Part shown: positions 1 to 10,319 of the stretch, one piece after another
Layout: every line of letters begins with the position of its first letter
Position numbering within the stretch: the stretch's first letter is position 1
DNA from: Cudoniella acicularis
Taxonomy: Eukaryota > Ascomycota > Leotiomycetes > Helotiales > Helotiaceae
NCBI GenBank assembly: GCA_013054445.1
Contig: JAAMPI010001812.1
Coordinates: forward strand, 1-10,319
Reading direction: 5' to 3'
DNA length: 10,319 nucleotides
Notes under the pieces: model-generated
Database searches by the model: none
Told to the model about the DNA's origin: nothing
The model's input: only the letters and a program-made list of their open reading frames with translations
Position numbers and translations under genes: made by a program

Positions 1-1
1 C

Positions 2-945
2 GGTATAGGAGGTAAGTAGGCCTGGCCTAAGTAAAGTAAAGGTATAGATTACTAACTTTATTTTATTCGCTGGTACAGCAGGTAAGTAGACCTGGCCTGA
101 GTAAAGTAAGCGTATGGATTACTGATTTTATTTTTTTCGCTGGCATAGGATGTAAGTAGACCTGGCCTAAGTAAAATAAGTGTGTGGATTACTGACTTTA
201 TTTTGTTCGCTGGTATAGGGGGTAAGTAGACCTGGCCCGAGTAAGTAAGTATAGGGATTGCTGACTTTGTTTTGTTTATTGGTATAGATAGTAAGTAGAT
301 CTGGCCTAGATAAAGTAAGCGTATAGATTACTAACCTTATTTTGTTTGCTGGTATAGGTGGTAAGTATAGCTATCCTGAGTAAAATAAGCGTGTGGATTG
401 CTAACCTTATTTTGTTCGCTGGTGTAGTGGGTAAGTAGACCTGGCTTGGGTAGAATAAGCGTATAGATTGCTAACCTTATTTTGTTCGCTGGAATAGCCT
501 GTAAGTATAGCTGGCTAAGTAAAGTAAGCTTGTAGATTACTAACTTTATTTTGTTTGTTGGTATAGACGGTAAGTAGAGCTCACCTAAGTAAAGTAAGCA
601 TATAGATTACTGACTTTTATTTTGCTCACTGGTGTAGATAGTAAGTAGACCTGGCTTAAGTAAAGTAAGCGTATAGATTACTGACTTTATTTTGTTCGCT
701 GGCATAGGACGTAAGTAGACCTGACCTAACTAAAGCAAGCGTGTAGATTACTAACCTTATTTTGTTCGCTGGTATAGGAGGTAAGTAGAGCTAGCCTGAG
801 TAAAGTAAGCGTATAGATTGCTAACCTTATTTTGTTCGCTGGTATAGGAGGTAAGTAGACCTGGCTTAAGTAAAGCAAGCGTATGGATTACTGATCTTTA
901 TTTTATTCGCTGGTGTAGGAGGTAAGTAGATCTGGCCTAAGTAAA
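2..945 (+). repeat. Tandem array of intron-like ~70-bp units, 13 full copies plus a partial 14th
   Basis: Units start at 2, 72, 142, 212, 281, 351, 421, 491, 560, 631, 701, 771, 841 and 912, giving periods of 69-71 bp. Similarity stops near 945, where the last copy diverges into unique sequence. Each unit reads GGTATAG (or a close variant), a free triplet, then GTAAGTAG, a TAAGTAAAGTAAG block, an ACTAAC/GCTAAC/ACTGAC-type branch site, a T-rich tract, and GCTGGTATAG of the next unit. GTAAGT is invariant in all 14 copies and the acceptor AG in every copy. Intron-like segments measure 66, 67 or 68 nt, but the triplet between acceptor and donor is always exactly 3 nt. The array enters from the left edge, so its true length is unknown. 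No long ORF crosses it in any frame. Confidence 0.97.
9..921 (+). CDS. Candidate run of 14 single-codon (3-nt) microexons forming the N-terminus of the HET protein
   Basis: Between each intron-like acceptor and the next GTAAGT donor lie three bases: GAG at 9, CAG at 79, GAT at 149, GGG at 219, ATA at 288, GTG at 358, TGG at 428, CCT at 498, ACG at 567, ATA at 638, GAC at 708, and GAG at 778, 848 and 919. Joined in phase 0 they encode E-Q-D-G-I-V-W-P-T-I-D-E-E-E without a stop and run in frame into the exon at 991. Seen directly: donor, branch and acceptor signals in every unit, and fixed triplet length despite intron length changes. Inferred: that the triplets are exons. Alternatives are skipping of some or all units as one longer intron, or a minisatellite inside a 5' intron. 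The upstream exon and start codon lie outside the window. Confidence 0.66.
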
Positions 946-990
946 ACATGGCCTTTTAAATTGATTGGTGCTATGCTGAACAGAATATAG
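922..990 (+). other. Last array intron, joining the microexon run to the HET exon
   Basis: The donor GTAAGT at 922-927 belongs to the partial 14th repeat unit, but from about 946 the sequence is unique. It still holds a branch-like GCTGAAC near 975-981 and an ATATAG acceptor ending at 990. Its length is 69 nt, almost that of the repeat introns (66-68). The next base, 991, is the first base of the HET reading frame, directly after an in-frame TAG (988-990) that the intron would remove. This ties the repeat donors to a real gene and sets the phase (0) of all upstream triplets. Confidence 0.72.
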
Positions 991-3053
991 ATCAATGATA
1001 GATGGTCCTATGTCGCAGACAATCATTTTGCCGTGGAATTTTTACGAATTAACCAGCCAGATATATTACCTCAACAGCCAGCCTTTTCGCAATTATGTGG
1101 GGACTGTAGCAATATCTCGTTGCAGGATTTCCGCCGTAACGTCACGCCCTCTCAGCTGAGAAAAACTGTAGAGTCTTGTGACCTCTGCAAAATGCTCGGG
1201 AAATCCTCAAAGCTGCTTAGCACAAACGATCAAAAAGGCATTGAGCTCTATAGAGATGGCTCGATGTTAAAAATAAAGGATCATGAACCGCCTGTTCTTA
1301 GAATATGTATAGATCCAGGTATGTAAACATATCCTCAACCTTTTCTATAAGTAGGAGAAGATGAAAACGTTATACTACAAGATAACTTACCTCCTATATT
1401 GTGGACAGGATCTAAAGCAGCTCCTGCTAATATCCAAGTCGGATTCCCTATATTGCCCGAAGCGGGGAGTCCGATCCATTTCAAGTTGCTCCGCGAATGG
1501 CTTCGAGTTTGTGACAACCAGCATTCCTGTCTGCCTGGATCCGACAGTTTACTACCCACTAGAGTCCTTGATGTAGGAGATCACATGAACTCGGATTCAC
1601 TCCGCCTTTACTGTACAAACGGAGATGAACAAGGAAAGTACATTGCTTTGTCTCATTGCTGGGGCATACTTCAAGAGAGCAAGAAATTTTGCACTTATGG
1701 TCATAATATCGCCGCCCTGTGTGAAAGCATCGACTTCAATAAACTACCAAAGACATTTCAAGATGCTGTTATAGTCACTCGAGAACTCGGTAAACGATTC
1801 CTCTGGATTGACTCGATTTGTATAATTCAGGATGACAAAGATGACTGGGACAGGGAGTCCCAGAAGATGGAAACGTTCTTCAGTTCGGCCTATTGTACGA
1901 TCGCTGCTAGCTCCGCTGAAGATTCTACCAAAGGATTTCTCAGTCCACGGTCACCAAGTAAGCCAGCAAGAGAGTGTGTAAAGGTTCCAAATGCCTTAGA
2001 TACCTCACTTTATATTTGCGAAATTATCGACAATTTTCATCACGACGTGGAGAAAGGAAAACTAAGTCAACGGGGTTGGGTGTTACAAGAACGAGCCTTA
2101 TCACGTCGGACAATCCACTTCACCACGGCACAGACTTATTGGGAATGTGGTGAGGGCGTTCACTGTGAAAGCCTCATCAAAATGCACAAGTAAGTCTATC
2201 AAGCCTAATATAATTCTATTACGAGCCAAAATCCCTCCTAGAGCCTTTGTATGTCTGTATTCCCATTCTATTAAAGGCTATTTTGACTACCTTGACGGTT
2301 TGGCGAGTGATTAGATATATCTGACCTTTTGTCTTTAGTGAGAAAGCACGTTTGCTAGGCGATCCTCAGTTTCCTGAGTCTATTTTGGGCAGGGCTGACA
2401 AAAACAAAATCCGTCTCTTTGAGTCCGTCTTTGAGATGTATTCGAAGCTTGCCCTTACAAAATGTGCCGACAGGTCCGTTGCGATCTCTGGACTGGAGAA
2501 CAGATTTGCAAGTACTTTCCACACTGAAGGGAGACACGGCATTTTCCAGTGTTACCTACATCGGAGCATCCTGTGGCAACGGTCTAGGGAGGAGAGGATG
2601 AAGCGGATAGAATACCCGCCAGACCGGAAGGTGCCGTCGTGGTCCTGGATGGCATATGAAGGAGAGATCAGTTATATGGATATTCCATTCAATCGGGTAG
2701 AATGGAGCAACGCCGTCAAATGTTTCTCTGGCGAACTTGTACTGAAAGCTCCGGTGAGAGAGTTCTTACGTTGTACGATCGAACTACAGAATACAGAATG
2801 CGCTATATTTGCTAAAGGGGCCGATAAAAGAGGATGGCTGAAGTTCGATAGGGAGGACATGACAGATATTCAAAGATTGAAGTGCATTGTCGTTGGAAGG
2901 GCACGCGAAGGACAAGAAACAGTTGAGCAAGAACATTATGTATTGGCTGTTGTGCAGAGACTTGAGGGAGGTTATGAAAGAGTCGGGGTCGGTTCTATCC
3001 AAAGGAGACAAATTTCGTTGAAGGGAGGGGAGTTTGAGTCGCGAATTATTTGA
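991..3053 (+). CDS. HET-domain protein (heterokaryon-incompatibility family), 5' end incomplete
   Basis: HET-domain proteins are fungal self/non-self recognition and cell-death effectors, usually cytoplasmic. Proposed exons are 991-1318, 1409-2189 and 2339-3053, about 607 codons. Exon 1 has the usual paired cysteines upstream of the domain (LCGDC, SCDLC). Exon 2 carries the HET motifs: YIALSHCWG (about 1639-1665), LWIDSICIIQDDKDDW with the following M-x-FFSSAYCTIAASSA stretch, and RGWVLQERALSRRTIHF. All look intact. Intron 2 (2190-2338, GTAAGT, branch CTGAC, TTTAG) is well defined and phase-consistent. Intron 1 starts at GTATGT (1319), but three in-frame acceptors exist (ending 1354, 1381, 1408). 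I prefer 1408 because the first gives only 36 nt. There is no in-frame ATG before the first cysteine pair, so the start must come from an upstream spliced exon through the repeat array. The stop TGA is at 3051-3053. Confidence 0.9.
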
Positions 3054-3589: not shown

Positions 3590-3989
3590 ACAACTTTACA
3601 TACACTAATTAAGTTATACAGCGCCACAGGTCGCTTGCGACTTCCTAATCAAGTCTAGTAGTAGAACTTAACGACCTAATTAAAAAAGTATTATCTAATC
3701 AGATTAGTAAAATTATTTAGTAAAAGACCGACTAATAAAAGCGCTCGTATAATCAGCTAGTTCAGCCTCTTAACGCTTAAGTAAGCGTTCCTGTCTGTCG
3801 GTATCTAATAAATCATAGAACTTAGTAACTTTAAAGAAGCGAGTCCTAATTTAGTCTAGCACTTTACTCGTAACAAGCTTAGCCTCTAAATGACGTGATA
3901 GTCCCCTAACTTAGTCATCCTCTACCTCTATAAGACTATAACTAATATAAACCTCGAACCCTAATTTATTAAATTAATCTAAATTTTAT
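3590..3989. repeat. AT-rich, RIP-like degenerate sequence
   Basis: The block is dense in TAA, TTA, CTA and TAG on both strands and poor in CpA and TpG. A hand count of 3661-3720 gives TpA 11, ApT 7, CpA 1, TpG 0, ApC 3 and GpT 3. That fits fungal repeat-induced point mutation, which turns CpA into TpA. No ORF survives. It is probably an old, mutated repeat abutting the inverted-repeat element at 3990, but I cannot identify the original element. Confidence 0.5.
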
Positions 3990-4402
3990 CTACTATCCTC
4001 CCCCCCGGTTCATTAGCTATTTTGCCACTTTATTGCCACTGTTGCGATACCGTCCAGCACCCCACTTCTCTTTCCACCAGGCACCTGATTATTGTCCAAA
4101 ATCGCCCAGAAAGATAAAACTGACACAATTGANGTTATTCCCNCAAATATTTACACANTATAAGCGNATACTTTAGATTTTCATAAATCCTTTTCCTTCG
4201 ACAAGNTTACTTAGTAGAGGGCCCTCTTCCTTCCTCCCTACTTTTAGTAGCGTTACGCGAGCCCTGAAATTAAATAATACATGCCATCTATAGTACTGGC
4301 TATAGAGGTGAAGAAAAGTATAGTGGAATTATAAGTGGAGTGCTTAGGCGTGGTGATAAAGTGGCAAAATAGCTAATGAACGGGGGGGGGGAGGGATAGT
4401 AG
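3990..4402. mobile_element. Non-autonomous DNA transposon (MITE-like) with ~45-bp terminal inverted repeats
   Basis: The left arm (about 3990-4033: CTACTATCC, a C-run, GTTCATTAGC, TATTTTGCCACTTTAT) is matched in reverse complement by the right arm (about 4355-4402). The arms differ mainly in C-run length (7 versus 10) and one or two bases next to it. The interior is about 320 bp with no coding capacity. It contains a small palindromic CTATAG...CTATAG motif near 4288-4307 and TTGCCACT repeated inside the left end. TA dinucleotides lie at both outer ends, as expected for TA-inserting Tc1/mariner/pogo-type elements, but the exact edges and target duplication are uncertain. No transposase is present, so an autonomous partner would have to act in trans. 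Confidence 0.75.
4133..4206. other. Five ambiguous bases (N)
   Basis: N occurs at 4133, 4143, 4158, 4167 and 4206, all inside the inverted-repeat element and nowhere else in the window. This is typical of low-quality base calls or collapse of several element copies during assembly, so the element interior is not exact. Confidence 0.9.
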
Positions 4403-4403
4403 A

Positions 4404-4745
4404 AAAGGAACGGTTGCGTGACGGTTGCGAAATGGTTTCAATTATCAACGGTTACGATTTGCCAACCGTCGAAATTGGTTGCACTTTGCGATGTGCAACA
4501 GATAATTCTCCCTGTCCTGTGATTGGTTATCGAGTTTGAAAAGTAAGTGATTATCTTATGATAGGTATATAAGTGCGAACCGTTGCGGGACGGCTGCGCA
4601 GCGGTTCCAAACTCGCAACGGCTGCACAACGGTTGCACAACGGTTATGAAAAGACAACGGCTGTAAGAAATCAACCGTCGAAATCGGTTGCGCCCTGCGA
4701 TGTGCAACAAAAAATATTTCCGCGTTGCCCATTGGTAGAAAATCC
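4404..4745. repeat. ACGGTTGC-type motif cluster with a 38-bp direct repeat
   Basis: About eleven copies or near copies of (A)ACGGTTGC / ACGGCTGC occur here, in both orientations. One imperfect hairpin near 4577-4606 has arms AACCGTTGCG and CGCAGCGGTT. A 38-bp segment at 4463-4500 recurs at 4672-4709 with four differences, all transitions, the left copy being the more T/A-rich. Short clustered motifs of this type resemble transposase-binding subterminal repeats of hAT-like elements, but I see neither defined ends nor a transposase. Short ORFs on both strands are by-products of the repetition. Confidence 0.6.
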
Positions 4746-6273: not shown

Positions 6274-7956
6274 ATGACTCTCAACGATCGATCTACATAT
6301 CTTCCTTACCCAACACCCGCTCACACCCCTCCTAACGATTCCAACATCCCACTTACGGTCATCGTATCCTCCCGTGCAGTCATCTTCGATCAAGACAACA
6401 ATTTGATTGTTTCACCTGCAACTCTCACATTGTCTCCGCAGACTGGGACAATCATTTCGATCCTTCCTACTATACTCCCTCCTACTAGCTTCCCTCCGAA
6501 TACTACATATATAGACCACTCGCCGCATTTGTTGCTGCCTGGTCTGGTTGATGCTCATGTGCATCTGAATGAGCCTGGAAGAACGGAATGGGAGGGCTTC
6601 AATACTGGTACGAGAGCTGCAGCCTCAGGCGGTGTAACAACCGTTATTGATATGCCATTGAATGCAATTCCACCAACCACAACTGCCAATGGGCTGAAGG
6701 AGAAGATCAAGGCTGCTGAGGGGCAATGCTGGGTTGATGTTGGTTTCTATGGTGGTATAATTCCTGGAAACGCATTAGAATTGTTGCCGCTTGTTGAAGC
6801 TGGTGTCAGGGGCTTCAAGGGCTTCTTGATAGAGAGCGGTGTAAGTCTTCCTGCCAATTATGAAGTATCCTACTAAACCTGGCATGAATAGGTCGACGAG
6901 TTTCCTGCAGTATCATCCTCTGATGTAGCACTCGCTATGACAACCCTGTCATCTACACCCACAACCCTCATGTTCCACGCCGAAATGATTCCACCCATCA
7001 CCGCCTCCGTCGGCGACGACGTCCAAGTCTCGCTTCCGCCCCTCGAGCCCTCAGGCCCATTAACCTCCTATTCTACCTTCCTCTCCTCCCGCCCGCCAGC
7101 CTTCGAAACCTACGCCATCGAAGAAATCCTCTCACTCTCTCACCTCGCACCAGAGCTGCAACTCCACATCGTGCACCTCTCTGCCATCGAAGCCATTCCC
7201 ATACTACGCGCCGCACGAGACCGAGGTGTCAAAATCACTGCGGAAACCTGCTTTCATTACCTGGCTCTTGCATCTGAAGAGGTTGCCGACGGTGACACAA
7301 GACATAAATGCTGTCCTCCCATCCGCAACTCCGTCAATCGCGATGGTCTCTGGTCCGAACTCGCCTCCCCGAATTCTGTCCTCCAGACTATTGTCTCGGA
7401 TCATAGCCCTTGCACCCCGGAGCTAAAACTCCTACCTGACGGCCTGAGTCGCGGATGCGGCGCTTCTCACTCCCACGCTAGAGAGATAAAAGGTGTCAAC
7501 GGCGAGATAATAAGCAAAGAAGAAGCAGAGGAAAGAGAAAAAGGCGATTTCTTTGCTTCGTGGGGCGGAATTTCATCCGTAGGTCTTGGGCTACCAATCT
7601 TGTGGACTGCGGCTTCGGAGCGATCCGAACCTATCAGTATCACAGATGTGGTACGCCTGTGCTCCGTGAATACGGCAGCGCAAGTTGGCTTGAGCCATAA
7701 GAAAGGAGGCTTGAGACCGGGTATGGATGCCGACGTGTGCGTGTTTGATGATAAAGGCGAGTTTGTAGTGGGCAGAGAGCAGATGTTATTTAGGAACAAG
7801 GTGTCACCTTATCAGGGGAGGAAAATGAGGGGTGTAGTTAAGGAGACTTGGTTGAGAGGCCAAAAAGTGTTTGAGAGGGATGGCGCGAATGGTGGGTTTG
7901 TGGATAAAGGTGGTTTGCCGAGAGGTACTTTGTTGTTGGAGAAGAGGAAATGTTGA
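6274..7956 (+). CDS. Allantoinase (allantoin to allantoate, purine catabolism)
   Basis: This is a cyclic amidohydrolase that hydrolyses (S)-allantoin to allantoate, letting the fungus use purines as nitrogen source; in yeast the gene is DAL1. Exons are 6274-6840 and 6892-7956, joined by a 51-nt phase-0 intron (GTAAGT, branch TACTAAAC, acceptor TAG). The product is 543 aa, slightly long for the family owing to a P/T-rich first ~30 residues. Signatures: [20 protein letters not shown] with metal ligands H95 and H97, the K182 in GFKGF expected to be carbamylated, H218 (FHAEM), H284 (HIVHLSA), and D359 in [11 protein letters not shown]. The spacing H95/H97/K182 and the order match bacterial All[14 protein letters not shown] stretch closes the barrel near the C-terminus. 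The ATG at 6274 is in good context (CACAATGA). The stop TGA is at 7954-7956. Confidence 0.96.
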
Positions 7957-9348: not shown

Positions 9349-10319
9349 ATGTACGAACCAGAACCCATCCAATGGCGTGGAGGCGAACATTTTTACACCG
9401 GTTCGTCACCCCCTTTCTCAGGAATTTCTCCCTCGCTAAATACTATAAACCAGGCAAACATGATGACTTCTGCTTCGTCTGTGGTACGGCCAAAGAAATT
9501 CTTTTCGGCTGCCAAACATGTGAAGATTGCTATTGTGCAGAATGCATGATGGATCCTGATGATATTCCTGAATTCTGGTTTTGTCCGCATTGTGTGGATA
9601 GAGCTTATAATTTTCCTCCGGGTCAAGAAATAACTAATGAGAATTTTACTCCGGATTCTGTGGCGATTTCGGGGTCTACACCCGGCAACCAGGATTCCAG
9701 CATTGAAGAAACGAGAAGAAGCGCTCAAGAGTCAGAAATAGTTGCACCTGAAATACATTCAAAAAAGGCCTGTTCTTCTAAGCAGGAATCCGGAAAATTC
9801 AACTCTAACGCCACCGCAAGATATCCAACCGTCGGGAACATCGAACTTCTCTCCCACTACTTTCTCCACCTCGCAACATCCCACCACATCTCGACCACTA
9901 CCACCCAAACCCATAACCTCCAACCCAACAACCACAATACCCTCCTCCTCATCCTCATCACCACCAAATCCCACCCAATCAAACATTCCCAAACCCCCAA
10001 AACGGCCCCTCCCAACACACTCCCCACCTCTCCCAGCACCACCCAAAAAGAAATCCAAATACTCAACCTTCTCCTCACACGTCGACAAAGCCCTCTCAAT
10101 CATCCACTCTGAACTCGAAAAAGCGGCACAAACCAATAAATCGGAGCATGTTCTTGAAAGAGAGATCGAGAATTTAAAGCAGAGGATTAGGATGATGGAG
10201 GGGCAGTTGGCGCTTATGGAGAGGGAAATTGAGGGGTTGAGGGGTGAGAAAGAAAGGGTGAGGGTTTTGGAAGAGGAGAATAGAGTGTTGAGGGGAGTGG
10301 TGGAAAGGTTTAGGGGTGA
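9349..10319 (+). CDS. PHD-like zinc-finger protein with C-terminal coiled coil, 3' end cut by window
   Basis: The start is the ATG at 9349 (MYEPEPIQWRGGEHFYTG). A 53-nt intron (9401-9453; donor GTTCGT, acceptor CAG) splits a glycine codon and joins in frame to the finger. The finger runs C24-x2-C27-x9-C37-x2-C40-x4-C45-x2-C48-x12-C61-x2-C64 with W59 two residues before C61. This is PHD spacing, with cysteine where the usual histidine sits (C45). PHD fingers typically read histone tails in the nucleus, but C45 makes the ligand uncertain. A P/S/T-rich linker with basic patches (KPPKRP, PPKKKSK) follows, then a heptad-like coiled coil from about 10111 to the end. The finger is in one frame and the linker/coil in the next, so a second intron (possibly 9731-9785, GTCAGA...CAG, weak sites) or a frameshift lies near 9731-9830. 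No stop is reached in the coil frame. Confidence 0.8.

Follow-up and report, generated by a model that had tools for sequence, protein, structure and literature searches.

Do introns that stand exactly one codon apart build part of a protein? This question is raised by the window, which is the whole stretch of DNA that we analyzed. It is 10,319 bases long and makes up the entire contig C902 of the 53,198,242-base assembly of Cudoniella acicularis. The window begins inside an array of short introns, so the upstream start exon falls outside it. We found GTAAGT donors at 12, 82, 152, 222, 291, 361, 431, 501, 570, 641, 711, 781, 851, and 922 (n = 14, window 9-990). The spacer before every one of these donors is exactly 3 nt, and the array introns are 66 to 69 nt long. 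Thus, the invariant GTAAGT and the constant distance from acceptor to next donor described in the first-pass annotation were borne out. An extra GTAAGT at 241 is internal to an intron and is not an array donor. Tandem Repeats Finder reported 13.5 copies with a period of 70 over 2-945. Read directly, the 14 triplets are GAG CAG GAT GGG ATA GTG TGG CCT ACG ATA GAC GAG GAG GAG; none of the 14 is a stop codon, in agreement with the uninterrupted run of sense codons noted earlier. A CTRAY branch site had been claimed for each unit. This is true of 13 of the 14 introns and fails for the last one (922-990), which differs from its counterpart at a second locus, C915, at 14 of 68 aligned bases. The coordinates of the array and of the gene behind it are collected in Table 1.

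Table 1. Features of the intron array and the adjoining HET gene in the window
Feature	Position	Strand	Observation
3' part of the array intron cut by the contig start	1..8	+	Ends in ATAG, followed by GAG and GTAAGT; the contig begins inside this intron
13 full units (codon plus 66-68 nt intron) and the 14th codon at 919-921	9..921	+	Residues predicted if each codon is an exon: E Q D G I V W P T I D E E E
Array codons 1-7	9-11, 79-81, 149-151, 219-221, 288-290, 358-360, 428-430	+	
Array codons 8-13	498-500, 567-569, 638-640, 708-710, 778-780, 848-850	+	
Last array intron, 69 nt	922..990	+	Resembles the unit only at its 5' end; no CTRAY
HET gene exon with predicted phase-0 junction to the array (INDRWSYVADNHF...)	991..1318	+	Open frame; C915 has LDDRWIYTPDNDF at the equivalent place
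Ordinary intron 1 of the HET gene (GTATGT..ACAG)	1319..1408	+	Joined frame open; C915 has an intron at the same position
HET gene exon carrying the HET domain	1409..2189	+	PF06985
Ordinary intron 2 of the HET gene (GTAAGT..TTAG)	2190..2338	+	Joined frame open
Last HET gene exon, stop at 3051-3053	2339..3053	+	Joined frame open

The array runs into a gene of the HET family, fungal genes that are linked to cell death and self-recognition. Membership is given by a PF06985 match above the curated cut-off (E = 2.3e-32; 112.8 bits versus 22.5) and by a joined frame that is intact to the stop. When the six window frames were scanned against Pfam, the frames of this gene contained HET only, with no NACHT or ankyrin domain. 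The HET frame is open from 991 and in phase with the TAG at 988-990, so the phase-0 opening that had been placed directly after the last array intron stands. We found that the protein is identical over 540 residues to C. acicularis G7Y89_g14193 (P0001; Leotiomycetes, Helotiales). This public model begins at an internal methionine downstream of the array and omits the first 67 residues of the HET frame, along with any array-coded linker. Because gene models of such array genes are cut short in this way, arrays of this kind may be under-reported.

The remainder of the window carries other features. An amidohydrolase gene (6274-7956, plus strand; Pfam Amidohydro_1 and Amidohydro_3), which we take to be allantoinase- or dihydroorotase-like, contains a short intron at about 6841-6891. 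A plus-strand frame at 9350-10319 runs to the contig end and has a Cys/His-rich stretch that resembles a PHD-type finger by eye; the tested frame of this region had no Pfam match. Inverted repeats at 3986-4406, with 40-nt arms (4000-4039 and 4350-4389, 93% complementary) flanking 310 nt, look like a small terminal-inverted-repeat element.

The 3-nt-spaced intron chains are not due to chance. We made 400 dinucleotide shuffles of each of five array stretches; their chains never exceeded 3 introns, a length reached in 2 of the 2,000 shuffles, compared with the 5 to 13 observed. We also observed that folding of the array RNA was poorer than that of every one of 20 shuffles (z = +3.03). Thus, the splice sites are not hidden by unusual structure.

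The first-pass annotation had proposed a genome scan for 3-nt-spaced introns, which we ran over the whole 53.2-Mb genome with the pattern GTAAGT-N(50-72)-YAG-NNN-GTAAGT. It returned 37 matches, 35 of which lie within six loci (C902, 13; C1636, 9; C915, 8; C35, 2; C1671, 2; C952, 1). C1753 and C1832 hold the remaining two; C1832 is a simple repeat. HET matches are present at five of the six loci (C902, C915, C1636, C952, and C35), and the sixth, C1671, is a remnant that has a start exon homologous to that of C915. With the gap set to 2, 4, or 6 nt, the whole genome gave 6, 3, and 3 matches, respectively; the reversed pattern gave 13. Allowing GTRAGT and introns of 45 nt or more gave 59 matches, with 35 at the six loci and 24 elsewhere, compared with 35 for the reversed control. 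None of the 24 is an array, bar the simple repeat at C1832. The lone junction TAG-NNN-GTAAGT occurs 406 times genome-wide, which is no excess over the 545 occurrences of its reversed pattern, and a single junction is therefore uninformative. At C1424:10194-10257, a lone intron-like stretch with CTGAC and TAG-GAT-GTAAGT is a possible isolated 3-nt exon.

A chain detector (donor, CTNAY, and AG; introns of 45 to 130 nt; exon lengths of 0 to 15; both strands) was applied to 215,743 bases. Chains of at least four introns were found at exon length 3 only, at C902, C915, C952, C35, and C1636. At other exon lengths, 3-intron chains were seen just twice, once at length 0 and once at length 9. These bases were picked around arrays and HET genes, so the chain rate is not a genome rate. 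Zero-length exons or recursive splice sites were rejected as a reading, since the one chain at exon length 0 in the 215,743 bases lies elsewhere than the window array.

Upstream regions were inspected at 31 HET loci: the window, C915, nine more, and then 20 more distant ones, with two regions clipped by contig ends. Arrays lie upstream of HET in C902, C915, C952, C35, and C1636, and a broken array lies upstream in C1080. We found none upstream of C843, C1086, C299, or C1124, nor at the 20 more distant loci. C1023 has two or three candidate junctions upstream of HET and an ambiguous 5' end. For a further 37 HET matches, the upstream regions were covered by the genome-wide pattern scans only. 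In a FastTree phylogeny, one group (support, 0.998) unites C902 and C915 with P0036 and with proteins of Tricladium and Halenospora. A second group contains C952, C1636, and C1080 (0.991); its sister C299 is without an array, and C35 falls elsewhere. As grouped by this tree, arrays are present in three HET lineages of the C. acicularis genome. A three-donor pattern matched 40 stretches of prokaryote genomes. The three that were inspected (L022, L024, and L055) are a CRISPR-type cyanobacterial repeat, whose unit contains TAG-NNN-GTAAGT and is unrelated to splicing. All four of the three-donor stretches in viral contigs were inspected, and none is an intron array.

The array loci do not all share one intron. 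C902, C915, and C1671 have a common unit of about 70 bp, and C1636 and its mutated copy C1080 have another, of about 71 to 74 bp. Mean intron identity between C902 and C1636 is 0.62, and within these arrays it is 0.84 and 0.83, respectively. C1080 is a HET copy with many stops, in which the array units have ATAAGT in place of GTAAGT; its C-to-T and G-to-A changes resemble repeat-induced point mutation.

Paralogous loci supply the 5' ends that the window lacks. At C915, a 60-nt exon, MNLKRVNELLFHSRRRESFT, ends in phase 0 at a GCAAGT donor and is followed by 13 codons, IEEYRPRLPYPPD, and then by LDDRWIYTPDNDF. The start exon of C1671, MKKVKRVTKQLLNWRRAESFK, also ends in phase 0 and is homologous to that of C915 (182 of 259 bases); after three GTAAGT units the sequence gives way to other DNA, and no match to the window HET protein was found in the 10 kb examined. 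At C952, MATKSSYTSDSGEDHGKYFL ends in phase 0, and the array codons S, D, D, and F lead to YAKNEWTYP. At every locus for which we located both ends, the HET part follows immediately after the array.

The introns of C35 are a separate case. The seven chained introns at this locus are no more alike than shuffled sequence (0.582 versus 0.571), and the exons between them, AAT, GAA, TAT, ATA, and TTA, are all 3 nt; a sixth candidate exon, ACC, and the seventh intron are uncertain. Because the introns are mutually unrelated and the exons are still 3 nt, the array is not merely a minisatellite. Repeat copying could not be expected to yield this spacing, and a one-codon spacing constraint could. The frame upstream of the array has a weak Pkinase match (E = 2.9e-7; 30.6 bits, under the 31.7 cut-off) and possibly runs into the array in phase 0. 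The HET part is without about its first 240 residues, and the array sits between it and the weak kinase match. This copy may be degenerate.

We then compared the variability of codons and introns. Units were aligned for the window (13), C915 (11, with a divergent first unit dropped), and C1636 (9, with two shorter units dropped). The codon was compared with the 53 intron columns outside the splice signals for the window and C915 and with all 71 other columns for C1636. Mean pairwise difference per site was 0.679 in the codon versus 0.182 in the other columns for the window, 0.630 versus 0.228 for C915, and 0.491 versus 0.160 for C1636. Transversions showed a larger disparity (0.427 versus 0.037, 0.400 versus 0.030, and 0.333 versus 0.021, respectively), with codon values 11 to 16 times those of the other columns. 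In all three arrays the most variable contiguous triplet is the codon, the next best triplets scoring 0.376, 0.533, and 0.444. The codon columns rank 2, 1, and 3 of 70 in the window, 3, 1, and 17 of 70 in C915, and 2, 1, and 34 of 74 in C1636. The third codon base is T in 9 of 9 units of C1636, where the first two bases vary most, and it is mostly G in the window (8 of 13) and C915 (8 of 11); G next to a donor is common. Window units 10 and 13, and likewise units 2 and 10, have introns that differ at 5 of 67 bases and codons that differ at all three. The correlation of codon distance with intron distance gave a Spearman coefficient of 0.10 (P = 0.38) for the window and -0.07 (P = 0.63) for C915. 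Between C952 and C1636, we counted 40 differences in 177 bases of corresponding introns and 45 in 188 bases at the start of the HET exon; in the three codons there were 6, in only 9 bases. From these comparisons, the codons were likely diversified by selection. Diversification that acts on the codon would imply that the codon is translated. The 51 array codons contain 0 stops where 2.2 were expected (P = 0.11), which is weak support.

Protein relatives give a picture of what such a linker might look like. P0036 (415 residues; JGI source) has a homologous start segment, METIKRLAAQLLNRKRPESF, about 32 further residues, NDPWITYTDDDF, and the HET module, all in one frame. Relative to the window gene, ordinary intron 1 is absent and the frame stops where intron 2 lies. 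P0036 resembles the product of an incompletely spliced transcript from a relative, but it may instead come from a gene without introns. The AlphaFold2 model of P0036 (40 sequences; mean pLDDT, 84.2) has a helix at residues 2-13 and is mostly confident in the HET module; the linker between them (residues 14-51) scores below 50 and is modeled as disordered. When the PDB was searched with this model, the best E value was 0.27, and no structure reached the threshold of 0.001. A query made of the first 60 residues of P0036 returned P0036 alone, and one with the C952 start and N-terminal region returned nothing. The Tricladium varicosporioides protein P0002 (69% identical) begins with MFAGVEQHLAC before IDDNW, which hints at a translated end of a repeat unit, and P0003, P0004, and P0001 start at downstream methionines. 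There is a hint here, not proof, that the relatives share the array layout.

We consider it very probable, judging from genomic DNA, that the array triplets are spliced together as one-codon exons, which would give the protein a hypervariable linker after a short N-terminal segment and ahead of the HET module. The N terminus built from consecutive 3-nt exons that was proposed at first is supported as a prediction by four lines of evidence: the concentration of pattern matches in six HET-linked or related loci (35 of 37), the unrelated introns of C35, the phase-0 5' exons, and the variability focused on the codon. The phase-0 5' exons are those of C915, C1671, and C952, and C35 has a phase-0 frame.

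It is unlikely, in our estimation, that introns instead entered an existing coding linker in succession and split it into codons, so that the codons are old coding sequence and not diversified copies of a unit. This has the same splicing outcome as one-codon exons in a diversifying array and differs only in origin. It fits with codons that are unrelated to intron similarity in the window and C915 (Spearman, 0.10 and -0.07), with the continuous linker of about 32 residues in P0036, and with the mutually unrelated introns of C35. However, successive insertion would be expected to produce some 6- or 9-nt exons as well and to use phases other than 0, and we observed chains of at least four introns at 3 nt only. 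Moreover, the window unit is found at three loci only among the best candidates scored, and it is not dispersed. Dispersed mobile introns were likewise not supported, with the window unit at three loci and the C1636 unit at two among the best candidates scored.

Less probable still, the whole array could be a single intron of about 1 kb, or else an untranslated leader, containing an intron-derived minisatellite; the outermost sites alone would be used and the triplets never translated. Splicing of the 5' exon straight to the HET exon would also keep phase 0, and the public model P0001 does begin downstream of the array. Such a reading leaves unexplained that in three arrays no part of the unit varies more than the triplet, with transversions elevated 11- to 16-fold, and that the unrelated introns of C35 are spaced by exactly 3 nt. 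A noncoding minisatellite was rejected on similar observations, because variation centers on the codon triplet in three arrays and C35 has no repeat. We give almost no credence to a structural RNA or to minus-strand coding: although two 89-codon minus-strand frames occur in the array (58-327 and 337-606), a period of 70 is not a multiple of 3 and so breaks the frame, the RNA folds worse than all 20 of its shuffles (z = +3.03), Rfam has no match in window 1-1100, and neither idea explains a variable triplet between fixed splice signals.

If the triplets are one-codon exons, the array introns would be removed singly, by intron definition, and each unit would likely contribute a single residue to a disordered linker that precedes the HET module. 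The array codons would be translated, and selection would favor codon change. Units could be gained or lost, or exons skipped, and the linker would change by whole residues with no shift of the frame, since all the exons are 3 nt long. The likeness of the introns would permit units to be copied or lost through recombination while the codons diverge. We infer that the linker likely serves as a disordered segment, open to change, through which the HET cell-death module would be tuned or triggered.

Fungal one-codon-exon arrays could be a general generator of peptide diversity, in which one-residue intron cassettes, kept alike for this purpose, are copied, lost, and shuffled, codons are selected apart, and combinatorial splicing multiplies the variants. 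Such a device would have been fitted to different self/non-self effectors, namely NACHT-ANK proteins in truffle and, here, HET proteins and a kinase-HET protein, with at least three unrelated intron sequences in this genome. We offer this tentatively and think it somewhat more apt to prove wrong than right. At one codon, these exons come close to the smallest size possible, and a long series of them probes how sites are paired by intron definition. If the codons are translated, the copied part (the intron) is separated from the variable part (the codon), which are usually mixed in one repeat. The comparison of codon and intron inside the same 70 bases would then be an internal control for diversifying selection, and the array would be a frame-safe way of varying a self/non-self-type protein.

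Codon-sized microexons in the nank genes of Tuber melanosporum were reportedly described by Iotti et al. in 2012. According to the first-pass annotation, no gene with such a structure was known to have been described, and this does not hold: codon-sized microexons with alternative splicing have been reported for the T. melanosporum nank family, as cited in PMC10197012, PMC4986451, PMC9815663, and PMC3689799, and the kind of structure is therefore already known. According to these citing passages, the likeness includes dozens of 3-bp exons, a family linked to self/non-self recognition, and a proposed diversification of a protein segment. The window array has many 3-nt exons between short introns by its anatomy, and their use in splicing is predicted. 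As cited, however, the nank genes encode NACHT-ANK receptors with the microexons in the C-terminal recognition part, whereas here the array precedes the HET module of HET proteins in a member of the Leotiomycetes. Alternative splicing is reported for nank in those passages, and the HET arrays are described here from genomic DNA. Variation limited to the codon and unrelated introns are shown for the HET arrays; the nank genes are known here by the citing passages only. In passages of the literature on microexons and on HET or incompatibility genes (PMC3689799, PMC4986451, PMC9815663, PMC10197012, PMC11121469, and PMC4779268), microexon arrays in HET genes are undescribed; most subscription literature was outside this scope, so absence is unproven.

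Other systems share parts of the architecture, as described in the papers cited. Introner-like elements of fungi (PMC4457414) are near-identical introns with standard splice signals, but they are spread over unrelated genes, and the array units here occur at three and two loci among the best candidates scored. Stwintrons (PMC8469720) are also adjacent U2-type introns in ascomycetes; they are nested, with one interrupting a splice signal of another, whereas the array introns are complete and 3 nt apart. Xlr2 of Trichoderma virens (PMC11121469) has a functional microexon in a filamentous fungus, which acts as a regulated switch and is not an array of one-codon exons. The HNWD-type repeats of Podospora (PMC9815663 and PMC10197012) are described as alike repeats with few variable positions under positive selection and with reshuffling by recombination. 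There the repeat is translated, as WD40 units, whereas here the intron is repeated and a single codon varies. The role that we propose for the linker is comparable in logic to that of the variable repeats of fungal self/non-self receptors. Relative to these systems, what is new here is the presence of such arrays in HET genes, their N-terminal position, their occurrence in another fungal class, and the use of unrelated introns under one architecture.
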